Below, piece after piece: positions 15,541 to 32,771 of a DNA stretch of 64,000 nucleotides. The first letter of the stretch is position 1; each line of letters starts with the position of its first letter. Where the stretch lies: contig VXNJ01000001.1 in the NCBI GenBank assembly GCA_009840625.1, forward strand, positions 310,001-374,000, written 5' to 3'. The position numbers were made by a program, and so were the translations under genes. The notes beneath the pieces were generated by a model. That model did not search any database. It worked only from the letters and a program-made list of their open reading frames with translations, and had not been told where the DNA came from. This DNA comes from Chloroflexota bacterium (GTDB lineage Bacteria > Chloroflexota > UBA11872 > VXNJ01).

Positions 15541-16713
15541 ATGGCTACCAAGCGGATTTCCATCGGAATCATCGGGACCGGCTGGATGGGTTCGGTCCAC
15601 TGCCGCGCCTATCGGGAGGTCCGGGAGCGGTTTCCCGAAAGCGGGATATCGGCGGACCTTGTGGCGTGCGCCGACAACCTGCCCGGACGCGCCGCGGCCG
15701 AGGCGCAGCGGCTCGGCATCCCGCGCTCGACCGAGGATTGGCGGGAGCTGCTGGACGATCCCTCCATCGACGCGGTCAGCATTGCCACCCGCAATGACTC
15801 CCATGCCGAAATAGCAATCGCCGCGGCCGAGGCCGGGAAGCACATCTTCTGCGAGAAACCGGTCGGGCGCACGCCCGAAGAGACCGCCGCGATCGCCGCT
15901 GCCGCGCGGCGCAGCGGCGTGGTCACGTTCGTGGGTTTCTGCTACCGCTGGGTGCCGGTCGTCAGCTACGCCGCCCAGCTCGCCGCCAGCGGCAGGCTGG
16001 GTCGGATCCTGCACTACCGCGGAGTCTTCTTCGCCGCCTACGGGGCGCCGCCGCAGGGATTTCGGACCTGGCGCTACGTTTTCGAACAGTCCGGATACGG
16101 GGTGCTGGGCGACCTGATGACGCACGTCGTTGACATGGCGACCCTGCTGGCTGGTCCGGTAAGCGAAGTCTCCTCGCAGAAGCAGCACGTATACGAACAG
16201 CGGCCGGAACCGAGACTGGGGGTCGACCACTACGCTCTTGGGTCGGACTCCGATCCAATGTTGCCCGTCGACAACGAGGACTCGGTTTATGCCCAGGCGC
16301 GGCTCGAGTCGGGGGCGACGGCGACTTTCGAGGCCTCCCGGGTGATGCAGACGCCGGCGAACGAATTCGGTTTCACCATCTACGGCACCGAAGGCGTCGC
16401 ATCCTGGCAATTCAACCTGCTCAACAAGCTACAGCTCTACATCGCCGGCGAGGAACCCGAGCGTATCGGGCTCACTACCGTGTTCGCCGGCCGGCACCAT
16501 CCCAACCACGCGCGCTTTTCGGCCGATCTGGGCGGTGGGATCGACTACGAAGCCCTGCAGGTGATTGGCGCCCACCAGTTCCTGAGCGCGATCGCGGCCG
16601 GCAAATCCGAGGCCCCCGACTTCGAGTCGACCCTGCAAGTGGCGCGCGTGAACGCGGCGATGGCCCGATCCTGGGATTCGGGACGCTGGGAGCAGGTGGC
16701 CGCGATTCCCTGA
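15541..16713 (+). CDS. Gfo/Idh/MocA-family oxidoreductase (third copy)
   Basis: A 390-residue dehydrogenase starting MATKRISIGIIGTGWMG. The frame is open 19 codons further upstream, but that would place the start on the promoter. GTGWMGSVH (about 11-19) binds the dinucleotide and FCEKPVGRT (about 103) holds the catalytic Lys. The active-site region reads YGVLGDLMTHVVDMATLL (about 186-203). It is larger than the other two because of an expanded C-terminal domain (about 220-360). It lies 72 bases upstream of iolD on the same strand, so oxidation of an inositol-like or inosose-like compound is plausible. Confidence 0.87.
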   Translation: MATKRISIGIIGTGWMGSVHCRAYREVRERFPESGISADLVACADNLPGRAAAEAQRLGIPRSTEDWRELLDDPSIDAVSIATRNDSHAEIAIAAAEAGKHIFCEKPVGRTPEETAAIAAAARRSGVVTFVGFCYRWVPVVSYAAQLAASGRLGRILHYRGVFFAAYGAPPQGFRTWRYVFEQSGYGVLGDLMTHVVDMATLLAGPVSEVSSQKQHVYEQRPEPRLGVDHYALGSDSDPMLPVDNEDSVYAQARLESGATATFEASRVMQTPANEFGFTIYGTEGVASWQFNLLNKLQLYIAGEEPERIGLTTVFAGRHHPNHARFSADLGGGIDYEALQVIGAHQFLSAIAAGKSEAPDFESTLQVARVNAAMARSWDSGRWEQVAAIP

Positions 16714-16785
16714 GTCCGGTTGGCGGCCGGCCAATCGAAATAATGAACTAACGGCCGAGATGGCCGACGGGGGATTTGCGCAACC

Positions 16786-18684
16786 ATGTACACGACCTAC
16801 GACTCGCACGAGACCGTGCGCCTGACCATGGCGCAGGCGCTGGTGCGCTTCATCAACGCCCAGCACTCCGAATTCGACGGCGTGCGGCAGCGGTTCATCC
16901 AGGGAATCTGGGGGATCTTCGGACACGGGAACGTCTCGGGCCTGAGCCAGGCGATCCACGAATACGGCGGACCGGGACTGCCCTATCACCAGCCGTTCAA
17001 CGAACAGGCCCAAGTGCACGCCGCGGCCGGATTCGCCAAGGCCAAGCGGCGCCTGGCGACGATGGCCTGCACGACCTCGATCGGACCGGGCGCGACCAAC
17101 ATGATCACCGGCGCGGCCACCGCCACGATCGATCGGATCCCGGTCCTGCTGCTCCCCTCGGACTACTTCGCCACCCGCCACCAGGGCCAAATCCTGCAGG
17201 ATATCGAGCATCCGGTAAACCAGGACTACTCGGTGACCGACTGCTTCCGGCCGGCGGTCCGGTTTTTCGACCGGATCACCCGTCCCGAACAGCTGCTGTT
17301 CTCGCTGCCAGAAGCCTTCCGGGTCCTGACCGATCCGGCCGAAACCGGGGCAGTCTGCCTGGCGCTGTGCCAGGACATCCAGAACTGGGCATTTGACTAC
17401 CCAACCAATTTTTTCCGCGAAAACACCTGGCTGATCGAGCGAAGGCCACCCACAAGGGTCGCGATCGAACGCGCCGCCGAACTGCTCGCTGCCGCACGCG
17501 CGCCGTTGATCATCGCCGGCGGGGGCGTTCGCTATTCGAACGCCGAGGAATCGCTGACCGGATTCGCAGAGCGCTTCGGGGTGCCGGTTGCCGAGACCTA
17601 TGCCGGACGCAGCGTGATCTCCCGCGACAGCGAGCTGCTGCTGGGCGGGATCGGGATGAACGGTACCCGCGCCGCGGCGCACGCGGCCGAGAACGCCGAC
17701 CTGGTAATCTGCGTCGGCACCCGGCTCGCCGACTACACCACCGGATCCAATTCCATCTTCCAGAACCCCGACGTCGGGTTCATTTCCATCAACGTCAGCC
17801 CCCGCGATTCGATCAAGCTGGGCGCCCATCCGGTCGTCGCCGACGCCGTCCTCGCCCTGGAACAGTTAGGAGCCGCCGCCGCCGATCGCGGCGTATCTCC
17901 CAACCCGGATTGGCTGGAAGCGGTCGGCAACGCCCGGCGCAGCTGGCGCGCCGAGATCGCCGAAGTGCAGGTCCCCGCGGCCGGCAAGCCCCTGACCCAT
18001 CCGCAGTTGATCGGTGTCCTGAACCGGCACGCCCGGGCCGGAGACATCATGATCGCCGCGGCCGGCACGCCGGTCGGGGAAATGTGCAAGCTTTGGGACG
18101 GCACCGGCGGACGGACGGCCATGCTCGAATTCGGCAATTCCTGCATGGGCTACGAGATACCGGCCGCGATCGGCGTGCGCAAGACCGATCCCCCAGGCGA
18201 AGTATTCGTCCACATTGGCGACGGGGGGTTCCTGATGCACCCGTCCGAGTTGATAACCGCCCTCCAGGAACGCGCCAAGATCACCGTGATCATCGTCCGC
18301 AATTTGGGCTTCCAGTCGATCAACGCCCATCAGCGGCGCACCGTGGGGCACAGCCTGGGCAACGAGTTCCGCTGGCGCGATCCCGAATCGAACACGCTTG
18401 AACTCGGCGATTTCGTCGAGATTCCGTTCGCCGAAATCGCCGCCGGCATGGGGGCGCGAAGCTGGTCGGTAGACAGCGCCGCCGATTTATCGGCCGCCCT
18501 GGAGGAAGCCCGTGGCCAGGCCGGCCCCTGTCTGATCGAAGTCGACGTCGACAAGTACACCACCGCGCCCTCGCCGGGGGTGTGGTGGGACGTCTACGCG
18601 GCCGAGGTGAGCAACGACCCGGTAGTGGTCAAGGTGTCGGAGGAAAGCCAGCGCGGACGCGCCCGCCAGCGCTACTACTGGTAA
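16786..18684 (+). CDS. iolD: 3D-(3,5/4)-trihydroxycyclohexane-1,2-dione acylhydrolase
   Basis: A 632-residue thiamine diphosphate-dependent enzyme of the acetolactate-synthase fold. The N-terminal half contains GIFGHGNVSGL and YHQPFNEQAQVHAAAGFAKA, both characteristic of IolD. The TPP-binding motif begins GDGGFLMHPSELITAL (about 479) and ends with RNLGFQSIN. Length matches the family (about 620-645). IolD opens the six-carbon ring of trihydroxycyclohexanedione to 5-deoxyglucuronate in inositol breakdown. The gene converges with the iolE-like gene, only 19 bases between stops. The other iol genes (iolB, iolC, iolJ, iolA) are not in the window. Confidence 0.93.
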   Translation: MYTTYDSHETVRLTMAQALVRFINAQHSEFDGVRQRFIQGIWGIFGHGNVSGLSQAIHEYGGPGLPYHQPFNEQAQVHAAAGFAKAKRRLATMACTTSIGPGATNMITGAATATIDRIPVLLLPSDYFATRHQGQILQDIEHPVNQDYSVTDCFRPAVRFFDRITRPEQLLFSLPEAFRVLTDPAETGAVCLALCQDIQNWAFDYPTNFFRENTWLIERRPPTRVAIERAAELLAAARAPLIIAGGGVRYSNAEESLTGFAERFGVPVAETYAGRSVISRDSELLLGGIGMNGTRAAAHAAENADLVICVGTRLADYTTGSNSIFQNPDVGFISINVSPRDSIKLGAHPVVADAVLALEQLGAAAADRGVSPNPDWLEAVGNARRSWRAEIAEVQVPAAGKPLTHPQLIGVLNRHARAGDIMIAAAGTPVGEMCKLWDGTGGRTAMLEFGNSCMGYEIPAAIGVRKTDPPGEVFVHIGDGGFLMHPSELITALQERAKITVIIVRNLGFQSINAHQRRTVGHSLGNEFRWRDPESNTLELGDFVEIPFAEIAAGMGARSWSVDSAADLSAALEEARGQAGPCLIEVDVDKYTTAPSPGVWWDVYAAEVSNDPVVVKVSEESQRGRARQRYYW

Positions 18685-18703
18685 ATCGCGGGCCGGATGA
18701 GGC

Positions 18704-19600
18704 TCAGCCGAATCCGTTCCGGCTGAGCCAGTTGCGTGTCCGGGTGGCGATCGGCTCCGGCACCGCGAACGTCTCCACCGGATAGAGATCCTGTTCCACG
18801 ACCGCGAATCCGTCGAACTCGACCTCTTCCAGCACACGTCGGAAATCGCGCAGGTCGAAAAGCCCGTATTCGGGTTCGCAGAACACCCCGGCGCGGACGC
18901 TGGGCAGGAATCCCGTTCCCTCGGCCTGGCAGCGCGCGTGAACCTCGGGATGAATGTTCTTCAGGTGCACGTACGGTATGCGGGCGTGGTTGCGGGCCAT
19001 GTAGGAATTGGGGTCGCCGCCGCAGTAGGCGTGGTGGCCGGTGTCCAGGACCTGGCCCAGTTCGGGGTCGGCGGCCAGTTCGAAGAACCGGTCCATGTGC
19101 TCTTCGGTGCAGACATGGGTCTCGGCATGGGGATGGAAGTAAGTCTTGAGCGGAAAGTTAGACCGCAGCGCCCGGGCCAGATCTACCACCCGCTCGACCA
19201 GCAGCTTGAACCTGGCTTCATCCAGCTCGGGTTCGTCGATCAGGCGCCCGGTCTCTTTTTCGCGGTAAAGGCCTTCGATGAGGATGATCGCTTCGGCGCC
19301 GGCGGCCGAGAGGAGTTCGGCCAGTTGGAAGCACTCCTGGCGGATCGAGTCCTGCTCGTCATCGAACAGGTAGTTGCGCATTACCCTGCCGCCGCAAATT
19401 GAAAGTCCGCGCGCGACCAGCTGGGTGCCCAGGCGCCGCGGGTCGGTCGGCAGGTAGCCGAACCCGCCGGATTCGATCCAGCGATATCCGGAGCGGGCCA
19501 CCTCGTCCAGGAACCGGTTCCACGGCGGCTGCAGGGGATCGGATGCGAACGATACGCCCCAGGAGGTGGGCGAACTGGCGACCCTGACTTTAAGCGGCAC
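18704..19600 (-). CDS. IolE-like sugar phosphate isomerase/epimerase-fold enzyme
   Basis: A 298-residue TIM-barrel protein of the xylose-isomerase-like family. SPTSWGVSF near the N-terminus, TYFHPHAETHV (about 150-160) and LDTGHHAYCGGDP (about 185-197) resemble 2-keto-myo-inositol dehydratase (IolE), with His, Asp and Glu metal ligands in the usual places. The start is a GTG at 19600 that overlaps the end of the upstream oxygenase gene by 11 bases, indicating translational coupling. The family also includes sugar epimerases, so the dehydratase assignment rests on motif similarity and on iolD next door. Confidence 0.75.
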   Translation of the reverse strand: MPLKVRVASSPTSWGVSFASDPLQPPWNRFLDEVARSGYRWIESGGFGYLPTDPRRLGTQLVARGLSICGGRVMRNYLFDDEQDSIRQECFQLAELLSAAGAEAIILIEGLYREKETGRLIDEPELDEARFKLLVERVVDLARALRSNFPLKTYFHPHAETHVCTEEHMDRFFELAADPELGQVLDTGHHAYCGGDPNSYMARNHARIPYVHLKNIHPEVHARCQAEGTGFLPSVRAGVFCEPEYGLFDLRDFRRVLEEVEFDGFAVVEQDLYPVETFAVPEPIATRTRNWLSRNGFG

Positions 19601-20213
19601 GACCCTTGCCTTCCTTCAAATCGAGATTGAACATTCGCCGCCGGAGACCCCCGCCCAAGGAGGCGTGGATTATGCGGCGGTCGATAACCACTACATCGCC
19701 CGGTTCAGATTCCAGTCCGATCCAGGCTCCGCCCGGATCGTACCAGTCCGGCAACCGGACGATCGGGTCCGGCGCCGGACCCGATTGCCACGGCCCGTAC
19801 CGGTGCGATCCCGGGATTACCAACAGGCAGCCGCGGCCGACCGCGACCGGGTCCAAGTAGACGTTGATCCGCACGTGGATAGTGTCCGTTCCCACCCCGT
19901 CGACGTGCCATGGGTTGTCGCCGGAATGGAGGTTTCCCGTGCTGGCGATCTGGACCAGACTCCTGCCGGGGACCAGCGAGGCCTGCAGGCGATTGATCAT
20001 TCCGTGCGATCGGAGCCCGGAGAGGACCGGATCGAGTTCCAGGAACCCGGTCATGGACGCGCGCTGGCCGGCGGGGCCGGACCAGGCGCCAAAGACGCGT
20101 TCGAACGCATCTTCCAGCGCCTGAATCTCCGCCGCCAACGCCCTTTTAAGGACAAGCGCACCGCAGCTGGCGAAACGCGCCTGCTGGCTGCGACTCAACC
20201 TTGAAGGCTGCAT
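19590..20213 (-). CDS. Phytanoyl-CoA dioxygenase (PhyH)-family protein
   Basis: A 207-residue predicted Fe(II)/2-oxoglutarate oxygenase. The iron ligands are visible as WHVDGVGTD (His-x-Asp, about 110-112) and a distal His in RRIIHASLGGG (about 187), with a downstream Arg pair for 2-oxoglutarate. The ORF could extend upstream, but that would run into the tRNA-Arg gene, so the ATG at 20213 was chosen. It is shorter than typical PhyH proteins (about 250-300). Its stop overlaps the start of the iolE-like gene, so the oxygenase probably acts on a related polyol or cyclitol substrate. Confidence 0.75.
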   Translation of the reverse strand: MQPSRLSRSQQARFASCGALVLKRALAAEIQALEDAFERVFGAWSGPAGQRASMTGFLELDPVLSGLRSHGMINRLQASLVPGRSLVQIASTGNLHSGDNPWHVDGVGTDTIHVRINVYLDPVAVGRGCLLVIPGSHRYGPWQSGPAPDPIVRLPDWYDPGGAWIGLESEPGDVVVIDRRIIHASLGGGLRRRMFNLDLKEGKGRAA

Positions 20214-20248
20214 CGATCCCCGCCGTCCATCATTCCAGATCCGGTCGG

Positions 20249-20321
20249 CGCCCCCGGTGCGATTCGAACACACGACCCGCTGCTTAGAAGGCAGCTGCTC
20301 TGTCCCCTGAGCTACGGGGGC
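20249..20321 (-). tRNA. tRNA-Arg (anticodon TCT)
   Basis: A complete 73-base cloverleaf on the minus strand: acceptor GCCCCCG pairs with CGGGGGC, D stem GCTC/GAGC, anticodon stem GCTGC/GCAGC with loop CTTCTAA, and T arm GTGTG-TTCGAAT-CGCAC. CCA is not encoded. It reads AGA codons. Confidence 0.96.
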
Positions 20322-20374
20322 CCGGCGCCCGACACCCGGTCCGGGCGTTGGCGATCCCACACAAACTATCCTAG

Positions 20375-21205
20375 GTGGGTGTTTGCGCAAGCGTTCCCCG
20401 GCAAGGAGAGATCGTAACCGAATTGGCGACCATTCCGGCTGCCCGGGAGAGTCTCGGGAAGAGCTTTCGCACCGACCGCTGGTGGGTGGAACCACTGCGG
20501 TTCGGAGTCATTTTCGGGGCATTCGTCGTCTACGCCACCTGGGCGCTGCTGCAGGGAGCGCAAAACGAGCACCACATCGCCGAGCCGTACCTCTCGCCCC
20601 TTTACGCGCCCAATTTTGCCGGGTTTCCCTGGCCCGACTGGTGGCCGGATTGGCTGCGCACGCCGGCCCTGCTGATCCTCTGGGCGCCGCTCGGCTTTAG
20701 GCTCACCTGCTACTACTACCGGCGATCCTACTACCGCTCCTACTTTCTATCGCCACCGGCATGCGCGGTCGGACGGCTGAACATTCCCTACCACGGTGAG
20801 CGCGGTCTGCTCCTGTTGCAGAACCTGCATCGCTACTTCGTGCCCTTCGCGGTGGCCCTGGTGGTGATTAACCTCCACGACACCGTCCTGGCTTTCTTTT
20901 TCAGCAACGGCTTCGGCATCGGCCTCGGGACCTTGATCCTGATCGTCAACGTCATCGGACTGGCCGGGTACACCTTCGGGTGCCATTCGCTGCGACACAT
21001 GGTGGGGGGCGGTCTGGACTGCTTCTCCTGCTCCTTGGCGGCGCGAACGCGCGGGCGCCTATGGCAGGTGGTGACAAAGTTCAACGAGAACCACGGCGCC
21101 TGGGCGTGGTTCTCGCTCGTCTGGATCGGATTCGCCGACTTTTACGTGCGCCTGGTCTCGTCTGGAGTAATCGGCGATCCGCGGCTGATTCTCATTTCGG
21201 CATGA
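20375..21205 (+). CDS. sdhC: Succinate dehydrogenase membrane subunit, mycobacterial Sdh1-like
   Basis: A protein of up to 276 residues with five hydrophobic helices (about 42-62, 93-115, 148-172, 176-200 and 235-255). Several histidines near helix ends (LHRYF, LHDT, HSLRHM) could ligate heme. Length and position directly before sdhA match the single membrane subunit of the mycobacterial Sdh1 type. It anchors the SdhAB dimer and passes electrons to quinone. The stop overlaps the sdhA start as ATGA. The start is uncertain: GTG at 20375 has no Shine-Dalgarno, while GGAG at 20405 precedes a TTG at 20423 by an overlong 14 bases. Confidence 0.8.
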   Translation: MGVCASVPRQGEIVTELATIPAARESLGKSFRTDRWWVEPLRFGVIFGAFVVYATWALLQGAQNEHHIAEPYLSPLYAPNFAGFPWPDWWPDWLRTPALLILWAPLGFRLTCYYYRRSYYRSYFLSPPACAVGRLNIPYHGERGLLLLQNLHRYFVPFAVALVVINLHDTVLAFFFSNGFGIGLGTLILIVNVIGLAGYTFGCHSLRHMVGGGLDCFSCSLAARTRGRLWQVVTKFNENHGAWAWFSLVWIGFADFYVRLVSSGVIGDPRLILISA

Positions 21206-23004
21206 ACACGCCCGAACCCGAGCGGCTCGCCTACGACGTGCTGGTCATCGGAGCCGGCGGGGCCGGACTGCGGGCCGCTATCGAGGCCAGCGCGAGCGGC
21301 GCCAGCGTCGGGGTGATCTGCAAGTCGCTGCTCGGCAAAGCCCACACAGTTATGGCCGAGGGCGGGATGGCGGCGGCGCTCCAGAACACCGACAAGCGCG
21401 ATTCCTGGCAAGTCCACTTTCGCGACACCATGCGCGGCGGCAAGCACCTGAACCAGTGGCGGATGGCCCAGATCCACGCCCTGGAGGCCCCCGACCGGGT
21501 CCGCGAATTGGAAGCCTGGGGTGCGGTGTTCGACCGCACCGACGACGGCCTGATCCTGCAGCGAAATTTTGGTGGCCACCGTTATCCGCGGCTGGCTCAC
21601 GTCGGCGACCGGACCGGCCTGGAGATGATCCGCACCCTGCAGGACCACGGCGTCCACCAGGGCCTTGAGGTGCACATGGAATGCACCGTCACCGGATTGC
21701 TGGTCGAAGGCGGCCGGGTGGTCGGGGCGCTCGCCTTCCAGCGCGCCGACGGGAAGCTCCTCGCAATCGCCGCCAGCGCGGTGGTCGTGGCCACCGGCGG
21801 AGCCTGCCGGGCCTGGGCGATCAATACCAATTCCTGGGAAGGGACCGGCGACGGTCACGCCCTGGCGCTTGACGCCGGCGCCGAACTGATAGACATGGAG
21901 TTCGTCCAATTCCATCCGACCGGTATGGTCTGGCCGCCCTCGGTGCGGGGGATCCTGGTCACCGAGGCGGTCCGCGGCGAAGGCGGGATCCTGCGCAACC
22001 GGTCCGGGCAGCGCTTCATGTTCGACAACGTGCCGGAGATGTTCGAGGGCGAATTCGCCGAGGACGAGTCCGAGACCCGACGCTGGCTGGAAGGGGACCA
22101 GCAGGCGCGCCGGCCTCCGGAGCTGTTGACCCGTGACGAGGTGGCGCGGGCGATCCTGCGCCAGGTCGGAGCCGGCGAGGGCTCGCCCCACGGCGGCGTC
22201 TTCCTCGACATCGCCTCGCAGCGCTCCGCCGACGACATCCGGTCGCGCCTGCCCTCGATGTATCACCAGTTCACTGAACTGGCGCAGGTGGACATTACCA
22301 AGACCCCGATGGAGGTCGGCCCCACCGCCCACTACATCATGGGCGGTATTCGGGTTGAATCGGAGTCCCAGGCCTCAAGCCTGCCGGGGCTGTTCGCGGC
22401 CGGGGAAGCGGCCGGCGGAATGCACGGGGCCAACCGCCTGGGCGGCAACTCGCTGACCGATCTCCTGGTCTTCGGCAAGCGGGCCGGCGAGCACGCCGCC
22501 CAGTACGCCCTTGAATGCGGTTCCCCGCCCAAGCCGGCGGCGGCAACGGTCGAATCGGCGGTGGCCCGCGCACTGTCGCCGTTTGCGGCCGAGGGCGCCG
22601 AGAACCCCTTCGCGCTCCTCTCGGAGCTGCAGGAAATGATGGACCGCAAGGTCGGCATCATCCGCCGCCAAAGGGACCTGGAATCGGCCCTCGGCGACCT
22701 GGAAGAACTAGCCGCGCGGTCGGCGTCGGCCCCGGTCCGCGGCGGGCGCGCCTACAACGTCGCCTGGCAACAGGCGATCGACCTGCGCAACGTCCTGACC
22801 GTTGCCCGGGCCTGCGCGCTGGCCGGGCTGGCCCGCACCGAGAGCCGCGGGGCCCATACCCGCGACGATTACCCCTTAACCGATCCCGAGTGGGGCGACT
22901 ACTCGGTCATCGTGGGCCCTTCGGCCGACGGGCCGCTGCGCGTGCGGCGCTCCCGGCTGGAGAAGCCGCCGCCCGAGTTTCAAGCCATCATCGACGGGGA
23001 ATAG
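21202..23004 (+). CDS. sdhA: Succinate dehydrogenase flavoprotein subunit
   Basis: A 600-residue flavoprotein. The FAD fold VIGAGGAGLRAAIEA (about 14) is followed by KAHTVMAEGGMAAAL, in which the His is the covalent flavin attachment site. The dicarboxylate residues are all in place: His in FHPTG (about 237), the proton-shuttle Arg in TEAVRGEGG, His in HYIMGG (about 375) and Arg in GANRLGGNSL (about 411). The C-terminal TESRGAHTRDDYP is also conserved. It oxidises succinate to fumarate on the inner face of the membrane. It overlaps sdhC by 4 bases and is followed by sdhB after 6. This canonical copy is the reference against which the divergent copy at 25492 should be read. Confidence 0.95.
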   Translation: MNTPEPERLAYDVLVIGAGGAGLRAAIEASASGASVGVICKSLLGKAHTVMAEGGMAAALQNTDKRDSWQVHFRDTMRGGKHLNQWRMAQIHALEAPDRVRELEAWGAVFDRTDDGLILQRNFGGHRYPRLAHVGDRTGLEMIRTLQDHGVHQGLEVHMECTVTGLLVEGGRVVGALAFQRADGKLLAIAASAVVVATGGACRAWAINTNSWEGTGDGHALALDAGAELIDMEFVQFHPTGMVWPPSVRGILVTEAVRGEGGILRNRSGQRFMFDNVPEMFEGEFAEDESETRRWLEGDQQARRPPELLTRDEVARAILRQVGAGEGSPHGGVFLDIASQRSADDIRSRLPSMYHQFTELAQVDITKTPMEVGPTAHYIMGGIRVESESQASSLPGLFAAGEAAGGMHGANRLGGNSLTDLLVFGKRAGEHAAQYALECGSPPKPAAATVESAVARALSPFAAEGAENPFALLSELQEMMDRKVGIIRRQRDLESALGDLEELAARSASAPVRGGRAYNVAWQQAIDLRNVLTVARACALAGLARTESRGAHTRDDYPLTDPEWGDYSVIVGPSADGPLRVRRSRLEKPPPEFQAIIDGE

Positions 23005-23010
23005 CGCCGC

Positions 23011-23769
23011 ATGTCGGATAGCGCCACATTGCGAGTCCAGCGTGGCAACACGCAAAAGCCCGAATTCGAGGATTTTCAGGTCCCGCTTGAAGAGGGGATG
23101 GTGGTGCTCGACGCCCTGCACTGGATCCAGGCCAACGCCGATCCCTCGCTGGCCTGCCGCTGGAACTGCAAGGCCGGCAAATGCGGGTCCTGCTCGGTCG
23201 AAATAAACGGGCGACCCAAATTGGCCTGCATGACCGGCTTTCACGAGATCGACGTCGAAAAACCCGTGTACGTCACTCCCCTGCGCGCCTTTCCAGTCAT
23301 CACCGATCTGGTCGCCGACGTGAGCTGGAACTACCGCGCCAAGCAAAGCGTCAAAGGGTTTTCACCGCGGCCGCAAACCGAGGAGGAGCGCTCTGCCGGG
23401 GGTTGGCGGATGCAGCAGCGCGACATCGACCGGGTCCAGGAATTTAGAAAGTGCATCGAGTGCTTCCTGTGCCAGGATGTCTGTCACGTGCTGCGGGCCA
23501 GCGCCCTGCACCAGGAATTCGTCGGTCCGCGGCTGCTGATCCATGCCGCCGCGCTGGAGATGCACCCGTTGGATAACGCCGACCGCCGCTCGGACCTTCG
23601 CGAGAGCCACGGAATCGGTTTCTGCAACATCACCAAGTGCTGCACCGACGTCTGCCCCGAGGGCATAAAGATTACCGACAACGCGATCATCCCGTTGAAG
23701 GAACGCGTCGCCGACGACGCCTACGATCCCGTCCGCAAGCTGCTGGGGCTGTTGACCGGCAACCGCTGA
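23011..23769 (+). CDS. sdhB: Succinate dehydrogenase iron-sulfur subunit
   Basis: A 252-residue protein carrying all three cluster motifs: CRWNCKAGKCGSC with a downstream Cys for [2Fe-2S] (about 50-75), and CIECFLCQDVC (about 148-158) with CNITKCCTDVCP (about 209-220) for [4Fe-4S] and [3Fe-4S]. It relays electrons from the SdhA flavin to the membrane quinone site. It converges with mdh, 18 bases between stops. sdhCAB is a compact three-gene operon without a second membrane subunit. Confidence 0.95.
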   Translation: MSDSATLRVQRGNTQKPEFEDFQVPLEEGMVVLDALHWIQANADPSLACRWNCKAGKCGSCSVEINGRPKLACMTGFHEIDVEKPVYVTPLRAFPVITDLVADVSWNYRAKQSVKGFSPRPQTEEERSAGGWRMQQRDIDRVQEFRKCIECFLCQDVCHVLRASALHQEFVGPRLLIHAAALEMHPLDNADRRSDLRESHGIGFCNITKCCTDVCPEGIKITDNAIIPLKERVADDAYDPVRKLLGLLTGNR

Positions 23770-23787: not shown

Positions 23788-24714
23788 TTAGATCCCCATA
23801 ACTTCGATAAGTTCGCGTACCGCCGCAGCCGAACCGCGCAGGCCGGCCAGCTCGGTCTCGTCGAGCTGGAGGTCGACGATTTCCTCGACTCCGCCGGCCC
23901 CGAGTTTGACCAGCACGCCGACGAAGGTTTCGCTGATGCCGAATTCGCCATCCAGCATGACCGCGCAGGGGAAAAGCCGCTTCTGATCAAGAAGGATCGC
24001 GTCGACCATCATCGCGCAGGCTTCGCCGGGCGCTTCGAACGCGCCACCCGTCTTCATCAGACCGACTATTTCCCCGCCGCCGTTGCTGGTTCGATCGATG
24101 ATCTGATCCAGCCGTTCGGGCGCGATCAGGTCCCGGATCGGGATCCCGTTCACGCTCGTGTAGCTTGGCACCGGGACCATGGTGTCCCCGTGCCCGCCGA
24201 GTACGAATCCGGAGACGTCGGCCGGCGAGACCCCCAGTTCCCAGGCCAGGAAGGTGCGAAAGCGCGAGGTGTCCAGGATCCCGCCCTGGCCAATGACGCG
24301 CTCGCGCGGAAAACCCGATACGTGCATGGCCAGCTGCGCCATGGCGTCCATCGGATTGGAGAGGATCACCAGCGTGGTATCCGGCGACCGCCGCACCAAT
24401 TCGGTGGTGACTTCTTCGACGATCGCCTTGTTCGCCAGCAGCAGGTCGTCGCGGCTCATGCCGGGCCGGCGCGGAAATCCGGATGTGACGACGCACACCG
24501 ACGATCCGGCGGTGTCGTCGTAGGAATTGCTGCCCAGCATGGTGGTCGGATAGCCTGCCAGCGCCGCGGCGTGATTCAGGTCCAGCGCCTTGCCCTGCGG
24601 CAGGCCTTCGACGATGTCGAGCAGTACCACGTCGGCGTATCCCCGCTCGGCCACTCGACGGGCGGTCGAACCGCCGGTGGCGCCGGCGCCGACCACGGTT
24701 ACTTTGGGTCGCAT
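23788..24714 (-). CDS. mdh: Malate dehydrogenase, LDH-like type
   Basis: A 308-residue NAD-dependent dehydrogenase. GAGATGGSTA (about 9-18) is the nucleotide loop, LLDIVEG supplies the acidic residue favouring NAD, and SGFPRRPGMSRDDLL (about 78-92) contains the substrate-binding arginines of malate rather than lactate dehydrogenases. GGHGDTMVP (about 173-181) holds the catalytic His. It resembles the LDH-like malate dehydrogenases of Chloroflexus and Bacillus. It is the last gene of a same-strand run sucC-sucD-X-Y-mdh, with 67 bases separating it from Y. Confidence 0.93.
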   Translation of the reverse strand: MRPKVTVVGAGATGGSTARRVAERGYADVVLLDIVEGLPQGKALDLNHAAALAGYPTTMLGSNSYDDTAGSSVCVVTSGFPRRPGMSRDDLLLANKAIVEEVTTELVRRSPDTTLVILSNPMDAMAQLAMHVSGFPRERVIGQGGILDTSRFRTFLAWELGVSPADVSGFVLGGHGDTMVPVPSYTSVNGIPIRDLIAPERLDQIIDRTSNGGGEIVGLMKTGGAFEAPGEACAMMVDAILLDQKRLFPCAVMLDGEFGISETFVGVLVKLGAGGVEEIVDLQLDETELAGLRGSAAAVRELIEVMGI

Positions 24715-24781: not shown

Positions 24782-25495
24782 CTAGCCCGGATTGCGAAAT
24801 CCGTTTAGTTCGGCTGCCCGCCGCAGCTTGTCGATTTGGGCAAATGGAGCCAGGTGGTAAGGACAGGGATCGGATGCAAATTGGGCGAGATTGAGCCGCC
24901 ACATGCCGTTCGGGCCGACCGCCATTTCCAATCGCTCGCGGTCGAAATCGTCGCGCACGTCGGCGGCGAGCCGGTAGGTCTTGAGCAGGTAGGCGGCACC
25001 GAGAAAATCCACGTCCACGCCGCGCACGGCGGCATCGCAAATCCCGCAGCCGTTGCAGAATTCGCTGCGCTGCAGCCGGTCCAGTTCCTCGCGGGTCATG
25101 GGCGTTGGGCGTTCGGGGTCGGGGGCATCAACCCGCTGCATCCAGGGCGAGAGCCGGGCCAGCCGATTGCGGGAGATTTCGCCGTCAACTACCAGGTCAA
25201 CAATGACCGCGTGATTGGACAGCGGTCCGATTCGGATTTCTTCGCCCGCGGACGGCAGCGGTTCGCGGACCGGCAGAACCGGCCGGCCGTTCAGGGTTAC
25301 CGCGCCGACGCCCGAGAATCCCCCCGGTTCCGCCTCGCGGAACCGCAGCGAACCGTCCTGTTCGTCGCGCACCTGGACCAGCGCGTCCTGCAGGGTCATA
25401 CCCGGTTCGGTGCGGATCGTGTAGCTGCGCCAGCTCGGTGCCGGGTCGGTCTCGGGGTCGTAGCGGGCGATGCTGAGTTCGGTCTGGGAAATCAC
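24782..25495 (-). CDS. Divergent SdhB-like protein retaining only the [4Fe-4S] ligands
   Basis: A 237-residue protein alignable with SdhB along its length. In place of CRWNCKAGKCGSC it reads LRFREAEPGGFSG, followed by the still recognisable TLNGRPVLP, so all [2Fe-2S] cysteines are gone. The helical domain keeps FCNGCGIC (three cysteines, about 149-155) but has Val where the fourth cysteine of that motif would be. The last motif keeps only the final Cys of DPCP. By E. coli SdhB numbering the survivors equal Cys149, 152, 155 and 216, the [4Fe-4S] ligands; the [3Fe-4S] ligands are lost. The GTG start overlaps the flavoprotein stop by 4 bases (GTGA). No membrane subunit adjoins. Function unknown; probably a one-cluster partner of the flavoprotein. 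Confidence 0.8.
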   Translation of the reverse strand: MISQTELSIARYDPETDPAPSWRSYTIRTEPGMTLQDALVQVRDEQDGSLRFREAEPGGFSGVGAVTLNGRPVLPVREPLPSAGEEIRIGPLSNHAVIVDLVVDGEISRNRLARLSPWMQRVDAPDPERPTPMTREELDRLQRSEFCNGCGICDAAVRGVDVDFLGAAYLLKTYRLAADVRDDFDRERLEMAVGPNGMWRLNLAQFASDPCPYHLAPFAQIDKLRRAAELNGFRNPG

Positions 25496-27057
25496 GCCGG
25501 AACCTCCGCCGCCGCCGGCTCATAATCCGCCCACCGGTCGCTGCGCCAGCCGGACGCGGAAAACCGAATCGCGCTGTGGTCGGCGAAATCGGCGTCGGCG
25601 TTCGGGAAATCTGCGCGCTGGTGCGGCCCCCGCGATTCCCGGCGCGAACCGGCCCCGGCGGCGATCGCCGCCGCCGTAACCACGCCCTGGCGCAATTCCA
25701 GCAGACGGACCAGTTCGAGGTTGAAATGGTAGCCGGAACTGGCCGGTGCGGCGCGGCGCGCAAGATCGCCGATTTCGGCGATTTGATCGGCGGCCGCGGC
25801 CAGGCCGCTTACATCGCGTCCCAGACCCAGGTTCGAACTCATCAGGCCGCGGAGCCGGTTCCAGAGAACCGCCGGGTCGATGCTCGAATCGCCGGCCAGC
25901 GTCAGCTGAATTCCTTCCTGGGCCCGCCAGCGGACGCTTTCGGACAGGGCGGCCGGACGCGGATCGATCCGGGACACCGCCGACTTGGCCGAAAGCAATA
26001 GGTCCAACAGCGCATTGCCGGGTAGCAATCCGGCCCCGTGCAGGGACCCGGCGGCCGCCTCGCCGGCCGCGTGCAGTCCCGGGATGCCGGTGTCCGGGGC
26101 GATTCCGCCCAGCGCAAAGTGTGCGCTGGGGACAACCGCCGCGCCGAAGTAATCGTCCAGCAGCCCGCGCAGTTCGGGCGCGAAAAGTTCCAACTCCTCG
26201 ACGCAGTCCGAGAAATCAACTCTCGAACCGCCGCCGGGATCCAACGCCCGGGCAACCGCGCCCAGGGCAATACCGTCCGGTTCGGATCTGAGGCCCGAAT
26301 AGCGCGCGCCGGCAGCGGCAGCGGCGTCACCGATCACGGCCCCGGCAGCGGCCGGTGAGCTGGAGACCAATCCGGGAACGAATTCGACCAGCTCGGGGTC
26401 GAGCAGAACCGCGCCGGCTGCCGCCGCCAGGGATTGCGCGGTTCCCGCGCTGTGGCGCGCATTGCCGCTGACCGAATACAGGCCTCCGACGGCCCCGTCG
26501 GTAAGGAGCACGTTGCCGCATGCGAATGCCTGCACCTGCCCCGACCGGATGTTGAGCGCGGTCAAACCGCTGACCCCGACTTCATCCATGTGGAGCTCCA
26601 GCGGCAGCCACTCGAAGTAGCCATCGATCGCGTAGCCGCAGGCCTGATCGAGCAGCGAGTTCAGCACCGCGCGACCGGTCCACCACCCCGCCCGCAGGCT
26701 GTAGTCACCGCTGTTTTGTCCCAGCCGGAACGTCTGCAGCCCGCCATCGGCGGAGCGCGCGTAGGCGGCCCCCATGTGCTCGGTGGCCACGGCCTCGGCC
26801 ACCGCTGCGTCAGCGGATCGCGAAACGGCCGCGGCATCGGCCAGTCCGGATCCGGCGGCGAGCGCGTCGGAGCGGAACTGCTCGATCTGGGAATCGCCGG
26901 CGGGAGCGTTCAGGCCGTCGCGGATGTTCCCGTCATGGTGCGCGCCGAAGGGGGCTCGCGATATCAGGGCCACCGACAGGTCTGATTCAGCGGCGGCAAT
27001 GGCGGCGCGCAGTCCGGCGATACCGCCGCCCACCACCACCAAGTCGTATTCAATCAA
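25492..27057 (-). CDS. Divergent SdhA-like flavoprotein, dicarboxylate site largely lost
   Basis: A 521-residue FAD protein related to SdhA/fumarate reductase/aspartate oxidase. VVVGGGIAGLRAAIAA begins about residue 7, and the C-terminal ESRGPHQRADFPN is conserved. The substrate residues differ from the canonical copy: FHPTG is replaced by FVPG, the TEAVRGEGG arginine region by GDAAAAAGA, and the Arg of GANRLGGN by Leu in GAGLLPGN. The His of HFALGG is kept. It is about 80 residues shorter than SdhA. The start was placed at a TTG just before IEYDLVVVGGG; a GTG at 27129 would add 24 residues. It is coupled to the iron-sulfur gene and lies 128 bases after sucD. It is unlikely to be a succinate dehydrogenase. 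Confidence 0.8.
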   Translation of the reverse strand: MIEYDLVVVGGGIAGLRAAIAAAESDLSVALISRAPFGAHHDGNIRDGLNAPAGDSQIEQFRSDALAAGSGLADAAAVSRSADAAVAEAVATEHMGAAYARSADGGLQTFRLGQNSGDYSLRAGWWTGRAVLNSLLDQACGYAIDGYFEWLPLELHMDEVGVSGLTALNIRSGQVQAFACGNVLLTDGAVGGLYSVSGNARHSAGTAQSLAAAAGAVLLDPELVEFVPGLVSSSPAAAGAVIGDAAAAAGARYSGLRSEPDGIALGAVARALDPGGGSRVDFSDCVEELELFAPELRGLLDDYFGAAVVPSAHFALGGIAPDTGIPGLHAAGEAAAGSLHGAGLLPGNALLDLLLSAKSAVSRIDPRPAALSESVRWRAQEGIQLTLAGDSSIDPAVLWNRLRGLMSSNLGLGRDVSGLAAAADQIAEIGDLARRAAPASSGYHFNLELVRLLELRQGVVTAAAIAAGAGSRRESRGPHQRADFPNADADFADHSAIRFSASGWRSDRWADYEPAAAEVPA

Positions 27058-27185: not shown

Positions 27186-28049
27186 TCAGAGTCGGGCGGC
27201 GACCAGATCGCCCGCATGGTCGGGATGACCGGCGATCGCCACACCGGCCGCCGTGAGTGCGGCGATCTTGCCCTCTGCGGCACCGGTGCCGCCGGAAACG
27301 ATCGCGCCGGCGTGACCCATTCGCCGCTCCGGCGGGGCGGCGCGCCCGGCAACGAACCCCACCACCGGCTTGCGACAGACCTCGGCGATGTATTCGGCGG
27401 CCAGCTCCTCGTCGCGGCCGCCGATCTCTCCGATCAGCACCATCGCGTCGATGTCCGGATCGGATTCGTAGAGTGCCAGCGCGTCGACGAACGAGAGCCC
27501 TTTGATCGGATCGCCGCCGATTCCAAGGCAGAGGCCCTGGCCGATTCCGCGGTCGGAGAGGGCCTGGATGACCTCGTAAGTCAGGGTTCCTGATCGGGAC
27601 ACGACGCCGACCCGGCCGGGTTGGGCGATATCGCCGGGGATTATGCCGAGCTTGGTCTGTCCGGGAAGGATCAGGCCCGGGCAGTTCGGCCCCAGGATCC
27701 TTGCGCCGCGGGCCCTCGCGAAGGCGAGCATCCGCGCGCAGTCCAGCACCGGGATCCCTTCGGTGATCACCACTACCAAGTCGATTCCGGCATCGACCTG
27801 TTCGCAGACTGCGTCGGCGGCTGCAAAGGGCGGAACGAAAACCACTCCGGCGTCGATCGCCTGCTCCTGCGTGGCCTCCTCGACGGTGTTGTAAACGGGG
27901 ACCCCGCTAACGGCCTGGCCGCCCCGGCCGGGCACGACCCCGGCAACGATTCGGGCGCCGTATTCGAGCATCAATCCGGCATGGAACGCGCCCTGGCGGC
28001 CGGTGATGCCCTGGACCAGGATCCCGGTTTTCGCGTTGACCAGCACCAA
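27186..28049 (-). CDS. sucD: Succinyl-CoA synthetase alpha subunit
   Basis: A 287-residue subunit. [16 protein letters not shown] (about 17-32) is the CoA-binding loop, [11 protein letters not shown] (about 121-131) is conserved, and the phosphorylated active-site His lies in [12 protein letters not shown] (about 243-254). It forms ADP- or GDP-dependent succinyl-CoA synthetase with SucC. The start is TTG (or the adjacent GTG) preceded by AAGGGA within the end of sucC; 9 bases separate the two genes. Confidence 0.95.
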
Positions 28050-28058: not shown

Positions 28059-29186
28059 TTAACCGGCCAGGGCGACTGCCGCGCGCACCGCTGAGAGCAT
28101 GTCGCGGTGGGCGTTCAGTCCGGCTTCGCGCAGGATTTTCAAGCCTTCGGCCTGATTGGTGCCGACCAGCCTGATCTCCAGCGGCACGCGCCGCGAGAGC
28201 CCGTCGAGGGCCTGGACGATCCCGTGGGCGACGTCGTCGCAGCGGGTGATGCCGCCGAATATGTTCACCAGAACTACCTCGACTTCCGGATCGGCCAGGA
28301 TCAGGTTCATCGCTTTGGCGACCTGGCCGGCGTCGGCGCCCCCGCCCACGTCCAGGAAATTGGCCGGTTCGCCGCCCTCGCTCACAATCACGTCCAGCAG
28401 CGCCATGGCCAGACCGGCGCCATTGACCATGCAGCCGATCGTCCCGTCCAGCTTTACGTAGGAGATCCCCGAATTGCGCGCCTCGGCTTCGGTTGCGGTC
28501 TCCTCTTCCGGGTTGCGCATTTCCCGCAGCTGGGGCTGCCGAAATAGCGCCGAATCGTCGATCGTGATCTTGGCGTCGATCGCCAGCAGTCGGTCCCCGG
28601 ACTGAACCAGCGGGTTGATCTCCACCAGCGAGGCGTCGTTGGAAACCAGGCAATCCACCGTTGCGGTAGCGATCCGGATGAAATCGCCGAGCAACGGGAG
28701 CGGAATGTCGAGCTGGAAAGCGAGCCGGCGGGCTTGGTGCGGCGCCAGTCCGGAATCAACCCCGCAGTCAACGGTGCGGATCGCTTCCGGGTCCTGGGCC
28801 GCGACCGTTTCGATTTCGATTCCCCCCGCGGCCGATGCCATCACCATCAACTGGCCGGATTCGCGGTCGGGGAGAGCCGCCAGGTAGTACTCGGCCGCTA
28901 TGTCGACCGCCTCGGCTACCATCACGTTTTCGACCAGATTGCCGCCGATTTCCAGTCCCAGGATTTCGGCCGCGGCCGCGGCGGCGCCGTCCGGGTCGCT
29001 GGCCAGTTTGACCCCGCCGGCCTTACCGCGTCCGCCGGACAGCACCTGGGCTTTTATCACGACCGGGCCGCCGAGTTCGGCTGCTGCCCGCGCCGCGGCG
29101 GCCGGATCGGCCGCCAGGAGGGCCGCCGGTACCGGGATTCCGCTGTCGGACAGCAGTTGGCGGGATTGGTGTTCGTGGAGCTTCAA
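28059..29186 (-). CDS. sucC: Succinyl-CoA synthetase beta subunit
   Basis: A 375-residue ATP-grasp protein starting [17 protein letters not shown] after a TTG at 29186; a longer frame upstream was rejected because the family begins at this point. [17 protein letters not shown] (about 45-61) is the nucleotide loop, and the C-terminal domain contains [11 protein letters not shown] and [14 protein letters not shown]. It is the first gene of the same-strand run that ends at mdh. No clear promoter was recognised in the roughly 240 bases before it. Confidence 0.95.
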
Positions 29187-29344: not shown

Positions 29345-29431
29345 CGGACTCCTATACGCCTGCGCTGGAAGCCGTTCGACCGGGAGATCATCCTGCGGAT
29401 GAAGAGCGGACGACCGCCACACCGCGATTAA
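29345..29431 (+). pseudogene. Possible vestige of an IS6-type transposase
   Basis: One frame of this otherwise empty stretch reads IRLRWKPFDREIILR before a stop at 29431. The block recalls the N-terminal segment of IS6/IS26-family transposases, in which a KWKHF/RWKPF-like motif is followed by an acidic residue and EIIL. The similarity covers only about 12 residues and the expected VRWYLRY continuation is absent. It could be chance. It borders the toxin-antitoxin pair. Confidence 0.2.
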
Positions 29432-29697
29432 GCGACGGGAGTCGCTTCCCGTGCGCGGCGGGCCATTGCCAAGTCGTAACTGGCCTGCCGGCGCATCCAG
29501 AATTCAGCGTTGCTCCAGCCGACGCGCTCTAATGCGAGGGCCACCTCGGGCGATATGCCACATCGTCCGTTCAGCAGCCGAGAGGCCGTGTTCCGGCTGA
29601 CGCCCAGGCGGGCTGCAAATTCGTTGACCGTCCACCCTGCCGCTTCTAGGTCATCCCGCAGACCGGCGGCCGGGTGGGTCGGGTTCTTTGCGCTCAT
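29428..29697 (-). CDS. higA: HigA-type antitoxin (XRE DNA-binding)
   Basis: An 89-residue protein with a lambda-repressor-type helix-turn-helix: WTVNEFAARLGVSRNTASRL (about 21-40), then LNGRCGISPEVALALERV. The C-terminal FWMRRQASYDLAMAR is the family signature of HigA/VapI antitoxins. AGGGA lies 8 bases before the ATG at 29697. It follows the toxin gene by 22 bases, in the toxin-first order typical of higBA. It would neutralise HigB and repress the operon. Confidence 0.9.
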   Translation of the reverse strand: MSAKNPTHPAAGLRDDLEAAGWTVNEFAARLGVSRNTASRLLNGRCGISPEVALALERVGWSNAEFWMRRQASYDLAMARRAREATPVA

Positions 29698-29719
29698 TTG
29701 TGGTCCCTGCTTCCTCCGT

Positions 29720-29992
29720 CTAGTGATAGTCCTCAAGGTCTATGTCCACTGCCTGGCCTTCGACGAACCGGAATGTGATTCGCCAGTTGCCGGAAACCCG
29801 GACGCTCCAGGTGCCACGCCGGTTGCCGCGCAGCTGATGCAAGCGGTAGCTGGGTCGGCGCATGTCCGCTGGCTGGATGGCCTGAGCCAAATCGTCCAGG
29901 ATGCGGTTGACGCGGACCACATGCTCAGGATTGATGCGGCGGCCATCGCCACGTTCCCATAATCGCCTCAATCCTACGTGCCTAAACTGCAT
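29720..29992 (-). CDS. higB: HigB-type toxin (RelE/ParE superfamily)
   Basis: A 90-residue protein from the ATG at 29992: MQFRHVGLRRLWERGD, a run ending in HQLRGNRRGTWSVRVSGNWRITFRF (about residues 57-81) and the C-terminal DIDLEDYH are diagnostic of HigB mRNA interferases. The family cleaves mRNA in the ribosomal A site. An upstream in-frame ATG at 30007 would add 5 residues, but a TACAAT hexamer lies between the two ATGs, which favours the inner start, possibly on a leaderless message. The pair sits between sucC and aconitase. Confidence 0.9.
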   Translation of the reverse strand: MQFRHVGLRRLWERGDGRRINPEHVVRVNRILDDLAQAIQPADMRRPSYRLHQLRGNRRGTWSVRVSGNWRITFRFVEGQAVDIDLEDYH

Positions 29993-29997
29993 GGCAA

Positions 29998-30003
29998 ATT
30001 GTA
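29998..30003 (-). promoter_or_regulatory. Candidate -10 element of higBA
   Basis: The minus strand reads TACAAT five bases before the ATG at 29992. At this spacing transcription would begin on or next to the ATG, giving a leaderless toxin message. No convincing -35 hexamer was found 15-19 bases upstream. Confidence 0.35.
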
Positions 30004-30007
30004 CCAT

Positions 30008-30494: not shown

Positions 30495-32771
30495 ATGGCC
30501 GAAAACGGTGTCGATTCTGCGGCGGTAAGCGATCTGTACCGGACCCTGCGCGGCCGGCTGCAAACGATTCGCCGGCGGTCCGGCCGGCCGTTGACGCTGG
30601 CCGAGAAGATCCTGTGGGGCCACGCCGACGACGCGGACCAGATTTCGCTGGACCCGGGATCCTGGATCATGTTGCGCCCCGACCGGGTGGCGTTGCAAGA
30701 CGTGACCGGCCAGATGGCGCTGCTGCAATTCCGGCTGGCCGGCCAAGACCGGGCCCAGGTGCCGACCACAGTGCACTGCGACCACCTAATCCGGGCCCAG
30801 ATCGGGGCCGCCCCCGACCTTGCGCGGGCGCGGCTGGAGAACAACGAGGTCTTCACTTTCCTGCGCGCGGCGGCGGCGACCTGGGGGCTCGGCTTCTGGG
30901 AACCGGGGTCCGGGATCATCCACCAGGTAGTCCTAGAAAACTACGCCGTGCCCGGTTCGATGATCATCGGCACCGATTCGCACACTCCAAACGGTGGCGG
31001 TCTCTGCACCCTGTCGATCGGCGTCGGCGGCGCCGACGCGGTCGACGTGATGGTCGGGTTCCCGTGGGAAGTGCTCGCACCCTCCGTCCTCGGGGTGCGG
31101 CTGACCGGTTCGCTGGCGGGCTGGAGTGCTCCCAAGGACGTGATCCTAAAGCTCGCCGGGATCCTGACCACAAAGGGCGGCACCAACCGGATCATCGAGT
31201 ACTTCGGGCCGGGCTGCGAGACGATTTCCTGCACCGGCAAGGCGACGATCACCAACATGGGGGCCGAAGTCGGAGCAACGACCTCGGTGTTCCCGTTCGA
31301 CCGCCGGATGTCAGCCTACCTGCGATCGACCGGCCGCGCCGAAGTCGCCGATCTGGCCGAAGCCGAAACGGACCTGCTGGTCGCCGACCCGGAAATCGCC
31401 GACGATCCGGAGCGCTATTACGATGAGGTGATCGAGATCGACCTTTCGGCCCTTGAACCGCACGTGGTCGGTCCGCACCGGCCCGACCGAGCGCGGCCAC
31501 TTTCCAAGCTGGCCGACGAGATCGCCAGCGAGGGGTTTCCCGACGACCTTTCGGCAGTGCTGATCGGAAGCTGCACCAACTCCTCCTACGAGGACATTTC
31601 GCGGGCGGCCGAGGTCGCTCGCCAGGCGACGTCGCAGGGACTGCAGGTGGCGACTCCGCTGCTGGTGACGCCCGGTTCGGAGATGGTTCGCGCCACGCTC
31701 GAGCGCGACGGGCAGATCGCCGAGCTGGAGGCGATCGGGGCTACCGTGCTGGCCAACGCCTGCGGCCCTTGCATCGGGCAGTGGCGTCGGGCCGACCCGG
31801 AAGCACCCCAGGAGCCGGTCCCGGCCCGCAATTCGATAGTCACCTCTTTCAATCGCAACTTCCCGCGGCGCAACGACGGCAATCCGGAAACGATGAACTT
31901 CATCACCAGTCCCGAAGTCGCGGTCGGGCTGGCGATCGGCGGACGGCTCGGATTCGATCCGCGCCGCGATCGGGTGCCCGGCAGTGGCGGCGTCCAATTG
32001 CAACCGCCCTCTCCGGCGCCGGAGGTGCCGGACAGCGGATTTATCGCCCGCGGAACCGGATACGTAGCTCCCAACGGCGAGACCGATCCGATCGAAGTCG
32101 ATCCGGAAAGCAGCCGCCTGCAGCTGCTGGAGCCGTTCGCGAGGCGGGCGCCTGAACAATTCGCCGACATGGCGGTGCTGCTAAAGGCCGTCGGACAGTG
32201 CACGACCGACCACATTTCGCCGGCCGGGCCCTGGCTGCGGTTTCGGGGTCACCTGGACAACATCTCCGACAACATGTTCCTGGGCGCCAACAATGCGTTC
32301 GCCGACCAACCCGGGCACGGGCCTGACCTGGCCGGCGACGGCCGCCCGAAACCGCTGCCCGAGGTTGCCCGGAACTTAGCCGCGGCCGGGCGCAGCTGGG
32401 TGGCTGTCGGGGACGAGAACTACGGGGAAGGGTCCTCGCGCGAGCACGCCGCGATGTCGCCGCGGCTGCTCGGGGCGGCCGTGGTCATCACGCGCTCGTT
32501 TGCGCGCATTCACGAAACCAACCTGAAAAAGCAGGGGGTCCTGCCCCTGACATTCGACGACCGCGCCGACTACGACCTGCTGCGGTCCGACGACCGAATC
32601 ACGCTCGAGGATGTGGCCGAGATCGCTCCCGGCCGCGGGTTGCGGGCACGTATCGACCACTCCGACGGTTCGGTCGATCGGATCAGTCTTTCCCACACCC
32701 TGAATCCCGAGCAGATAGCCTGGCTGTGGGCCGGTTCGGCCCTGAACGTGATCAGGAGTCAGACCGGCTAG
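30495..32771 (+). CDS. acn: Aconitate hydratase, mitochondrial-type
   Basis: A 758-residue aconitase. The swivel order and length fit the mitochondrial/AcnM type rather than AcnA (about 890) or AcnB. Iron-sulfur ligands are visible in GSCTNSSYED (about 357) and NACGPCIGQW (about 420-429). Other active-site blocks are DSHTPNGGG (about 161), TSFNRNFPRRNDG and the C-terminal GDENYGEGSSREHAA (about 638-652). It interconverts citrate and isocitrate. It stands alone on the plus strand, converges with ndk (12 bases between stops) and completes a local cluster of TCA-cycle genes. The ATG start lacks a strong Shine-Dalgarno. Confidence 0.95.
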   Translation: MAENGVDSAAVSDLYRTLRGRLQTIRRRSGRPLTLAEKILWGHADDADQISLDPGSWIMLRPDRVALQDVTGQMALLQFRLAGQDRAQVPTTVHCDHLIRAQIGAAPDLARARLENNEVFTFLRAAAATWGLGFWEPGSGIIHQVVLENYAVPGSMIIGTDSHTPNGGGLCTLSIGVGGADAVDVMVGFPWEVLAPSVLGVRLTGSLAGWSAPKDVILKLAGILTTKGGTNRIIEYFGPGCETISCTGKATITNMGAEVGATTSVFPFDRRMSAYLRSTGRAEVADLAEAETDLLVADPEIADDPERYYDEVIEIDLSALEPHVVGPHRPDRARPLSKLADEIASEGFPDDLSAVLIGSCTNSSYEDISRAAEVARQATSQGLQVATPLLVTPGSEMVRATLERDGQIAELEAIGATVLANACGPCIGQWRRADPEAPQEPVPARNSIVTSFNRNFPRRNDGNPETMNFITSPEVAVGLAIGGRLGFDPRRDRVPGSGGVQLQPPSPAPEVPDSGFIARGTGYVAPNGETDPIEVDPESSRLQLLEPFARRAPEQFADMAVLLKAVGQCTTDHISPAGPWLRFRGHLDNISDNMFLGANNAFADQPGHGPDLAGDGRPKPLPEVARNLAAAGRSWVAVGDENYGEGSSREHAAMSPRLLGAAVVITRSFARIHETNLKKQGVLPLTFDDRADYDLLRSDDRITLEDVAEIAPGRGLRARIDHSDGSVDRISLSHTLNPEQIAWLWAGSALNVIRSQTG

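Follow-up and report, generated by a model that had tools for sequence, protein, structure and literature searches.

A divergent SdhA-SdhB-like pair in a tricarboxylic acid cycle operon of a Chloroflexota bacterium: a candidate retired complex II heterodimer

Organization of the locus and coding status of divA

The window, i.e. the whole stretch of 64,000 nucleotides that was analysed, contains two adjacent genes, divA and divB, which encode divergent homologues of the flavoprotein and iron-sulfur subunits of complex II. They are located on the minus strand in the order sucC-sucD-divA-divB-mdh, and overlap each other by 4 nt (Table 1). On the opposite strand there is a conventional sdhC-sdhA-sdhB operon (20375-23769), with Mycobacterium smegmatis Sdh1 (7d6v) as its nearest solved relative. 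This conventional enzyme is of the Sdh1 type, and those of three genomes of the same family (G001, G002 and G003, see below) group with another type, an apparent replacement of succinate dehydrogenase (SDH) within one family. A search of the window's genome also yielded an intact class II fumarase, while a class I fumarase was searched for and not found.

Table 1. Coordinates of the pair and of the surrounding features in the window.
Feature	Coordinates	Strand	Remarks
Inositol-catabolism-like group	15484-20495		By eye: oxidoreductase, IolD-like thiamine-diphosphate enzyme and IolE-like isomerase, plus a gene similar to phytanoyl-CoA dioxygenase; adjoins the SDH operon
Conventional SDH membrane anchor	20375-21205	+	Corresponds to chain C in the M. 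smegmatis Sdh1 structure (7d6v); uncertain start codon
Conventional SdhA	21202-23004	+	All catalytic residues present
Conventional SdhB	23011-23769	+	All Fe-S ligands present
mdh, malate dehydrogenase	23788-24714	-	Above NCBIfam cut-off; directly downstream of divB
divB, divergent SdhB-like partner	24782-25495	-	237 aa; GTG start
divA, divergent SdhA-like flavoprotein	25492-27057	-	521 aa; TTG start at 27057, stop at 25492
sucD, succinate-CoA ligase alpha	27186-28049	-	Above NCBIfam cut-off; upstream of divA, same operon
sucC, succinate-CoA ligase beta	28059-29186	-	Above NCBIfam cut-off; likely TTG start at 29186
HigB-type toxin-like (95 aa) and HigA-type antitoxin-like (102 aa) genes	29428-30007	-	By eye: both small, with overlapping frames, in the sucC-aconitase interval
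Aconitase	30495-32771	+	Divergent from sucC; adjoins the pair's operon in family members too

The divA reading frame is coding, as indicated by its GC3 of 0.79, by the absence of in-frame stops (against 10 and 9 in the other two frames) and by the conservation of its orthologues in three genera; a stop-free run of 520 random codons at the composition of divA has a chance of about 3e-5. A plus-strand reading of the same interval was ruled out by the stops that break its frame. The protein matches the Pfam families FAD_binding_2 (E 2e-29) and Succ_DH_flav_C (1e-16), the SdhA/FrdA fold spans its whole length (VIA-align Z 48 to 5vpn and 38.7 to 1nek), and the ESRGPHQRADFP motif occurs at residues 474-485, so that the FAD fold and the motif region are retained, as the sequence-only reading of this DNA had stated. 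On the other hand, divA fell far under every NCBIfam cut-off for SdhA/FrdA, and with the model of L-aspartate oxidase (NadB; TIGR00551) it scored 148.7 bits against a cut-off of 452.75, the dicarboxylate residues of that family being absent. Its classification as an ordinary SDH, fumarate reductase (FRD) or NadB was discarded on these grounds. A viral sequence collection contained no relatives of the pair.

Substrate, proton-relay and FAD residues of divA

The residues of divA were compared in an alignment of 54 SdhA-family proteins with E. coli SdhA as the reference, in the numbering of that protein, checked against the 1nek alignment. The substrate-binding and catalytic residues of E. coli SdhA include His242, Thr254, Glu255, Arg258, His354 and Arg399. 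To these should be added Arg286, the catalytic arginine for substrate protonation or deprotonation (PMC9557727). Only one of the seven, His354, was kept in divA (as His313). His242 was replaced by Val227, Thr254 by Gly243, Glu255 by Asp244, Arg258 by Ala247, Arg286 by Asp261 and Arg399 by Leu344, although the register is unsure for Asp261, which lies in a stretch modelled at pLDDT 41-45. The earlier assignments of Val and Leu to positions 242 and 399, and the retention of His354, were thus reproduced; that of Ala to position 286 was not, and the changes of Thr254, Glu255 and Arg258 had been missed.

The possibility that Arg286 is shifted within divA was considered and rejected: Arg252, Arg256 and Arg270 are nearby and unaligned, no alignment placed an Arg at this position, and the G001 orthologue has no Arg in the stretch. 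More generally, substrate residues displaced but present elsewhere, the outcome named beforehand as refuting the sequence-only reading, were looked for and not seen. Among the 46 other proteins of SdhA/FrdA/NadB type, each of His242, Glu255, Arg258, Arg286, His354 and Arg399 was kept in 45 or 46, and the position of Thr254 was T or S in all of them, so the losses in divA are beyond chance. Concerning the FAD site, E388 is retained as Glu333, while the position of D221 is occupied by Thr.

Iron-sulfur ligands of divB and structural models of the pair

The SdhB ligands were compared in 73 aligned rows, of which two, truncated by the end of their contig or locus, were disregarded in the counts of missing [3Fe-4S] ligands. 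divB retains the four [4Fe-4S] ligands (C147, C150, C153 and C211), and has none of the ligands of the [2Fe-2S] and [3Fe-4S] centres. Among the 73 rows, at least two [3Fe-4S] ligands were missing only in the four members of the pair family, while four rows of Dehalococcoidia type missed one. The [2Fe-2S] set was missing only in the copies of the window and of G001, which are in the same state except for one leftover Cys at a [2Fe-2S] position in G001. The [4Fe-4S] ligands were retained in all four copies. In spite of its losses, divB scored 129.9 bits with TIGR00384, a broad subfamily model whose cut-off is 88; passing this model therefore does not distinguish a working SdhB from divB.

The electron chain of complex II runs from FAD through [2Fe-2S] and [4Fe-4S] to [3Fe-4S], and a distance limit of 14 Å is cited for electron transfer (PMC7447783). 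From the linear order of the centres, the loss of the [2Fe-2S] relay would cut off FAD from the [4Fe-4S] cluster, and in the window's pair the two would be at a distance that probably precludes useful transfer. As the cluster next to FAD and the terminal one are both gone, the earlier proposal that the pair could be an electron-transfer module is disfavoured for the window.

The AlphaFold2 model of divA (pLDDT 80, pTM 0.87) scored well for the FAD and helical domains and badly for the capping domain (about residues 230-310, pLDDT 41-67), which is about 26 residues shorter than its counterpart, with 86 residues between the positions of His242 and His354 versus 112 in E. coli. The models are silent on cofactors. 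Both match the SdhA and SdhB folds, and that of divB predicts the fold to be retained despite the loss of two sets of cluster ligands. Compared with a functional complex II, the homology and the fold are there in both subunits, while divA lacks the dicarboxylate and catalytic residues other than His354, and divB lacks the ligands for two of the three clusters.

Distribution of the pair and series of losses

The search for the pair covered 61 relatives, 41 genomes from the class and 400 from Chloroflexota, and it was found in only four, belonging to one family and three genera: the window's genome (G000, a Chloroflexota MAG) in the first, G001 in the second, and G002 with G004 in the third. The next best match was at 1e-63, versus 1e-118 or better for the carriers. 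In all four the order sucC-sucD-A-B-mdh is identical, with A/B overlaps of 1-4 nt, both reading frames are intact, and a conventional SDH is also present. The pair is absent from a fifth member of the family, G003 (89% complete), in which a conventional sdhAB comes after sucCD-mdh.

Concerning membrane attachment, the divA-divB operon contains no SdhC/D gene, the neighbours being sucD and mdh, and the anchor encoded at 20375 is part of the separate SdhCAB on the plus strand. SdhE, the CCG-domain anchor of class E, gave no match in G000-G004; it is carried by members of the class outside this family whose SdhAB adjoins mdh, with matches in G031, G034 and G046. Since there is no anchor in the operon and a conventional SdhCAB is found elsewhere in the window, the pair is probably soluble, in agreement with what had been proposed from the sequence: no membrane subunit and a soluble pair.

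Common to the four copies are the loss of Arg399 (Leu or Pro), the change of Asn398 to Gly and the loss of two or three [3Fe-4S] ligands. The copies of the window and G001 share, apart from the others, the changes T254G, E255D, R286D and R399L, the loss of the [2Fe-2S] set and a replacement motif, RFRE(A/S)EPGG(F/W)SG. The copies of the third genus retain Thr254, Glu255, Arg258, Arg286, His354 and the [2Fe-2S] and [4Fe-4S] ligands, with His242 changed to Asn, Arg399 to Pro, and the [3Fe-4S] cluster lost (two of its three ligands are gone). Across the three genera, the position of His242 is V/H/N and that of His354 is H/R/H. Since these residues are near-universal outside the family, the direction of change is loss, not gain. 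As an observation apart, the orthologues of the third genus (L040:7241-9684 and L041:6257-8700) have neither the carboxylate anchors nor the covalent-FAD His, and keep the full proton relay. Judged by their residues, the copies of the third genus look like an enzyme minus its carboxylate anchors with the acid-base relay kept, and those of the window and G001 look retired.

Selection and phylogeny

In the genome pair of the third genus, dN/dS was 0.135 for A and 0.25 for B, with 0.133 for sucC and 0.134 for sucD. Between the window and G001, four-fold degenerate sites of divA matched at 0.24, against 0.21 predicted by composition, i.e. they are saturated, while amino-acid identity was 35% for A (also given as 33-35%) and 49% for B, chance being 7-8%. 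Silent sites being saturated while residues match, A and B were constrained over most of the separation of both genomes. Both comparisons show that the coding sequence of the pair is under purifying selection, although constraint may have been lost very recently in the genus of the window itself. The window's divA is fast-evolving (end branch 3.5, the longest of the four).

In the SdhB tree, the four partners group together (99/98), apart from conventional SDH and SdhABE. In the SdhA tree, the four flavoproteins fall with four SdhABE-like proteins from Chloroflexota/Dehalococcoidia (97/90), with long branches and not as one clade, although their monophyly was not rejected (p-AU 0.227) and their orthology is likely from synteny. 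An origin of the pair from SdhABE is thus suggested by the SdhA tree and not by the SdhB tree. The four SdhABE-like neighbours also have odd substrate sites. In four loci where SdhAB of Dehalococcoidia type is followed by a class E SdhE-like subunit (L058:4132-6754, L061:5335-7969, L055:5350-7945 and L047:7430-10006), SdhA has altered substrate residues (H242 is Ala in two; R286 and R399 are lost in one) and the third [3Fe-4S] Cys of SdhB is Ala. They probably form a separate family of variant SdhABE complexes.

Interpretation

The reading that we favour, with about even confidence, is that divA-divB is a catalytically retired complex II heterodimer, a pseudoenzyme pair kept as a scaffold or regulator. 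Two features that define a pseudoenzyme were found: loss of catalytic residues, and purifying selection both in the genome pair of the third genus and between genera. With the substrate and relay residues gone, the window's pair would not interconvert succinate and fumarate, as had been anticipated. The course of events may have been as follows. An ancestral SdhAB in a sucCD-sdhAB-mdh operon would have been made redundant by the conventional membrane SDH, and its first losses would have been Arg399, which anchors the carboxylate, and the ligands of the [3Fe-4S] centre; on the window's branch, the [2Fe-2S] cluster and the proton relay would have followed. The present form could be a soluble, probably FAD-binding heterodimer that holds a [4Fe-4S] cluster and is produced alongside SucCD and Mdh. 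Most likely it would have a non-catalytic task, as a scaffold or regulator of the tricarboxylic acid cycle enzymes of the surrounding genes, and its [4Fe-4S] cluster would be structural or sensory; it is the position in the operon that suggests the tie to SucCD or Mdh. The fast evolution of the window's divA counts against a retired pair, as it could also reflect adaptation to a new substrate or the onset of decay. No pseudoenzyme SdhA or SdhAB pair was found in the open-access literature searched, although one may have been published elsewhere.

The main rival is a neofunctionalised oxidoreductase, which would act on a non-succinate substrate, less carboxylated or bulkier, with a soluble acceptor or oxygen receiving the electrons. 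L-aspartate oxidase, which works without Fe-S clusters, is a model for such a route. This possibility, which we hold only tentatively, is more plausible for the third genus than for the window: the orthologues of that genus, with the five catalytic residues and the two clusters that they keep while positions 242 and 399 have become Asn and Pro, are better candidates for a soluble enzyme with a new substrate, and may be catalytic. It also draws on the four changes common to the window and G001 in spite of their low identity, and on the related Dehalococcoidia SdhABE complexes, which likewise carry altered substrate residues. For the window's own copy the fit is less good: neither it nor the G001 copy has the proton relay, the two disagree at positions 242 and 354, its FAD site is without D221, its capping domain is short with a poor model, and the electron route from FAD through SdhB is cut. 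The idea of a rebuilt pocket contained in the sequence-only reading keeps those four shared changes in its favour; against it, positions 242 and 354 vary by genus, the short capping domain has a poor model, and the alignment of homologues gave no single new conserved pocket across the four-genome family.

Returning to a non-catalytic role, a more specific proposal is that the pair, derived from a retired complex II, serves specifically to regulate the operon: its solitary [4Fe-4S] cluster, perhaps with FAD, would sense redox state or oxygen, and the pair would control SucCD, Mdh or the conventional SDH by direct contact. We consider this unlikely as stated. Still less probable is that the pair is a functionless, recently released remnant in slow decay in the window's species. 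Such decay would agree with loss patterns that vary between genera, with the long branch of the window's copy and with the absence of the pair from G003; it is made less likely by selection, as seen in the low dN/dS of the third genus and in protein identity far above chance at saturated silent sites, and is at odds with the intact frames and A/B overlap of all four genomes and with the length of the stop-free run. A working SDH or FRD of unusual make-up, in spite of the clear SdhA/SdhB homology and the location in the SDH slot of the operon, is very improbable, given the absence of catalytic residues and of two of the three clusters, the scores of divA far below the SdhA/FrdA cut-offs and the presence of a conventional SDH.

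If the pair is indeed retired, complex II, which is among the most conserved metabolic enzymes, would have been retired stepwise with intermediates readable in sister genera, a clean natural case of a respiratory enzyme turned pseudoenzyme under purifying selection in a tricarboxylic acid cycle operon. In practice, labelling such pairs sdhAB would inflate SDH copy counts in these marine Chloroflexota.

Comparison with known systems

The closest known systems are SdhA-SdhB and FrdA-FrdB (E. coli 1nek and 1kf6), with which the pair shares the homology of both subunits, the fold, the A-B gene order and the ESRGxHxRxDF motif, C-terminal in SdhA. It differs from them in being devoid of the substrate and proton-relay residues, of the [2Fe-2S] and [3Fe-4S] clusters and of a membrane anchor, and in its shorter capping domain. 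Class E complex II (SdhABE), exemplified by the 8-methylmenaquinol:fumarate reductase of Wolinella succinogenes (PMC2680327), is approached by the pair in the SdhA tree, where it lies near Chloroflexota SdhABE variants, and in the vicinity of mdh, which class E genes also adjoin in f4 and f5 genomes of the same class. Unlike class E, the pair has no SdhE, divB has no C-terminal extension, and the SdhB tree separates them.

A precedent for the use of complex II subunits or paralogues outside respiration is provided by the SDHA assembly intermediates and the SDHC-Tim18 complex (reviewed in PMC10238741). The cases in the part of that review drawn on here are eukaryotic, with intact SDHA or membrane-subunit paralogues, and a retired A-B pair does not figure among them. 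Finally, NadB is, like divA, a soluble flavoprotein of the SdhA family, although it acts without an Fe-S partner and keeps the dicarboxylate residues, while divA has an SdhB-like partner; the window's genome has a NadB-like protein of its own (L003), in which the dicarboxylate residues are kept.
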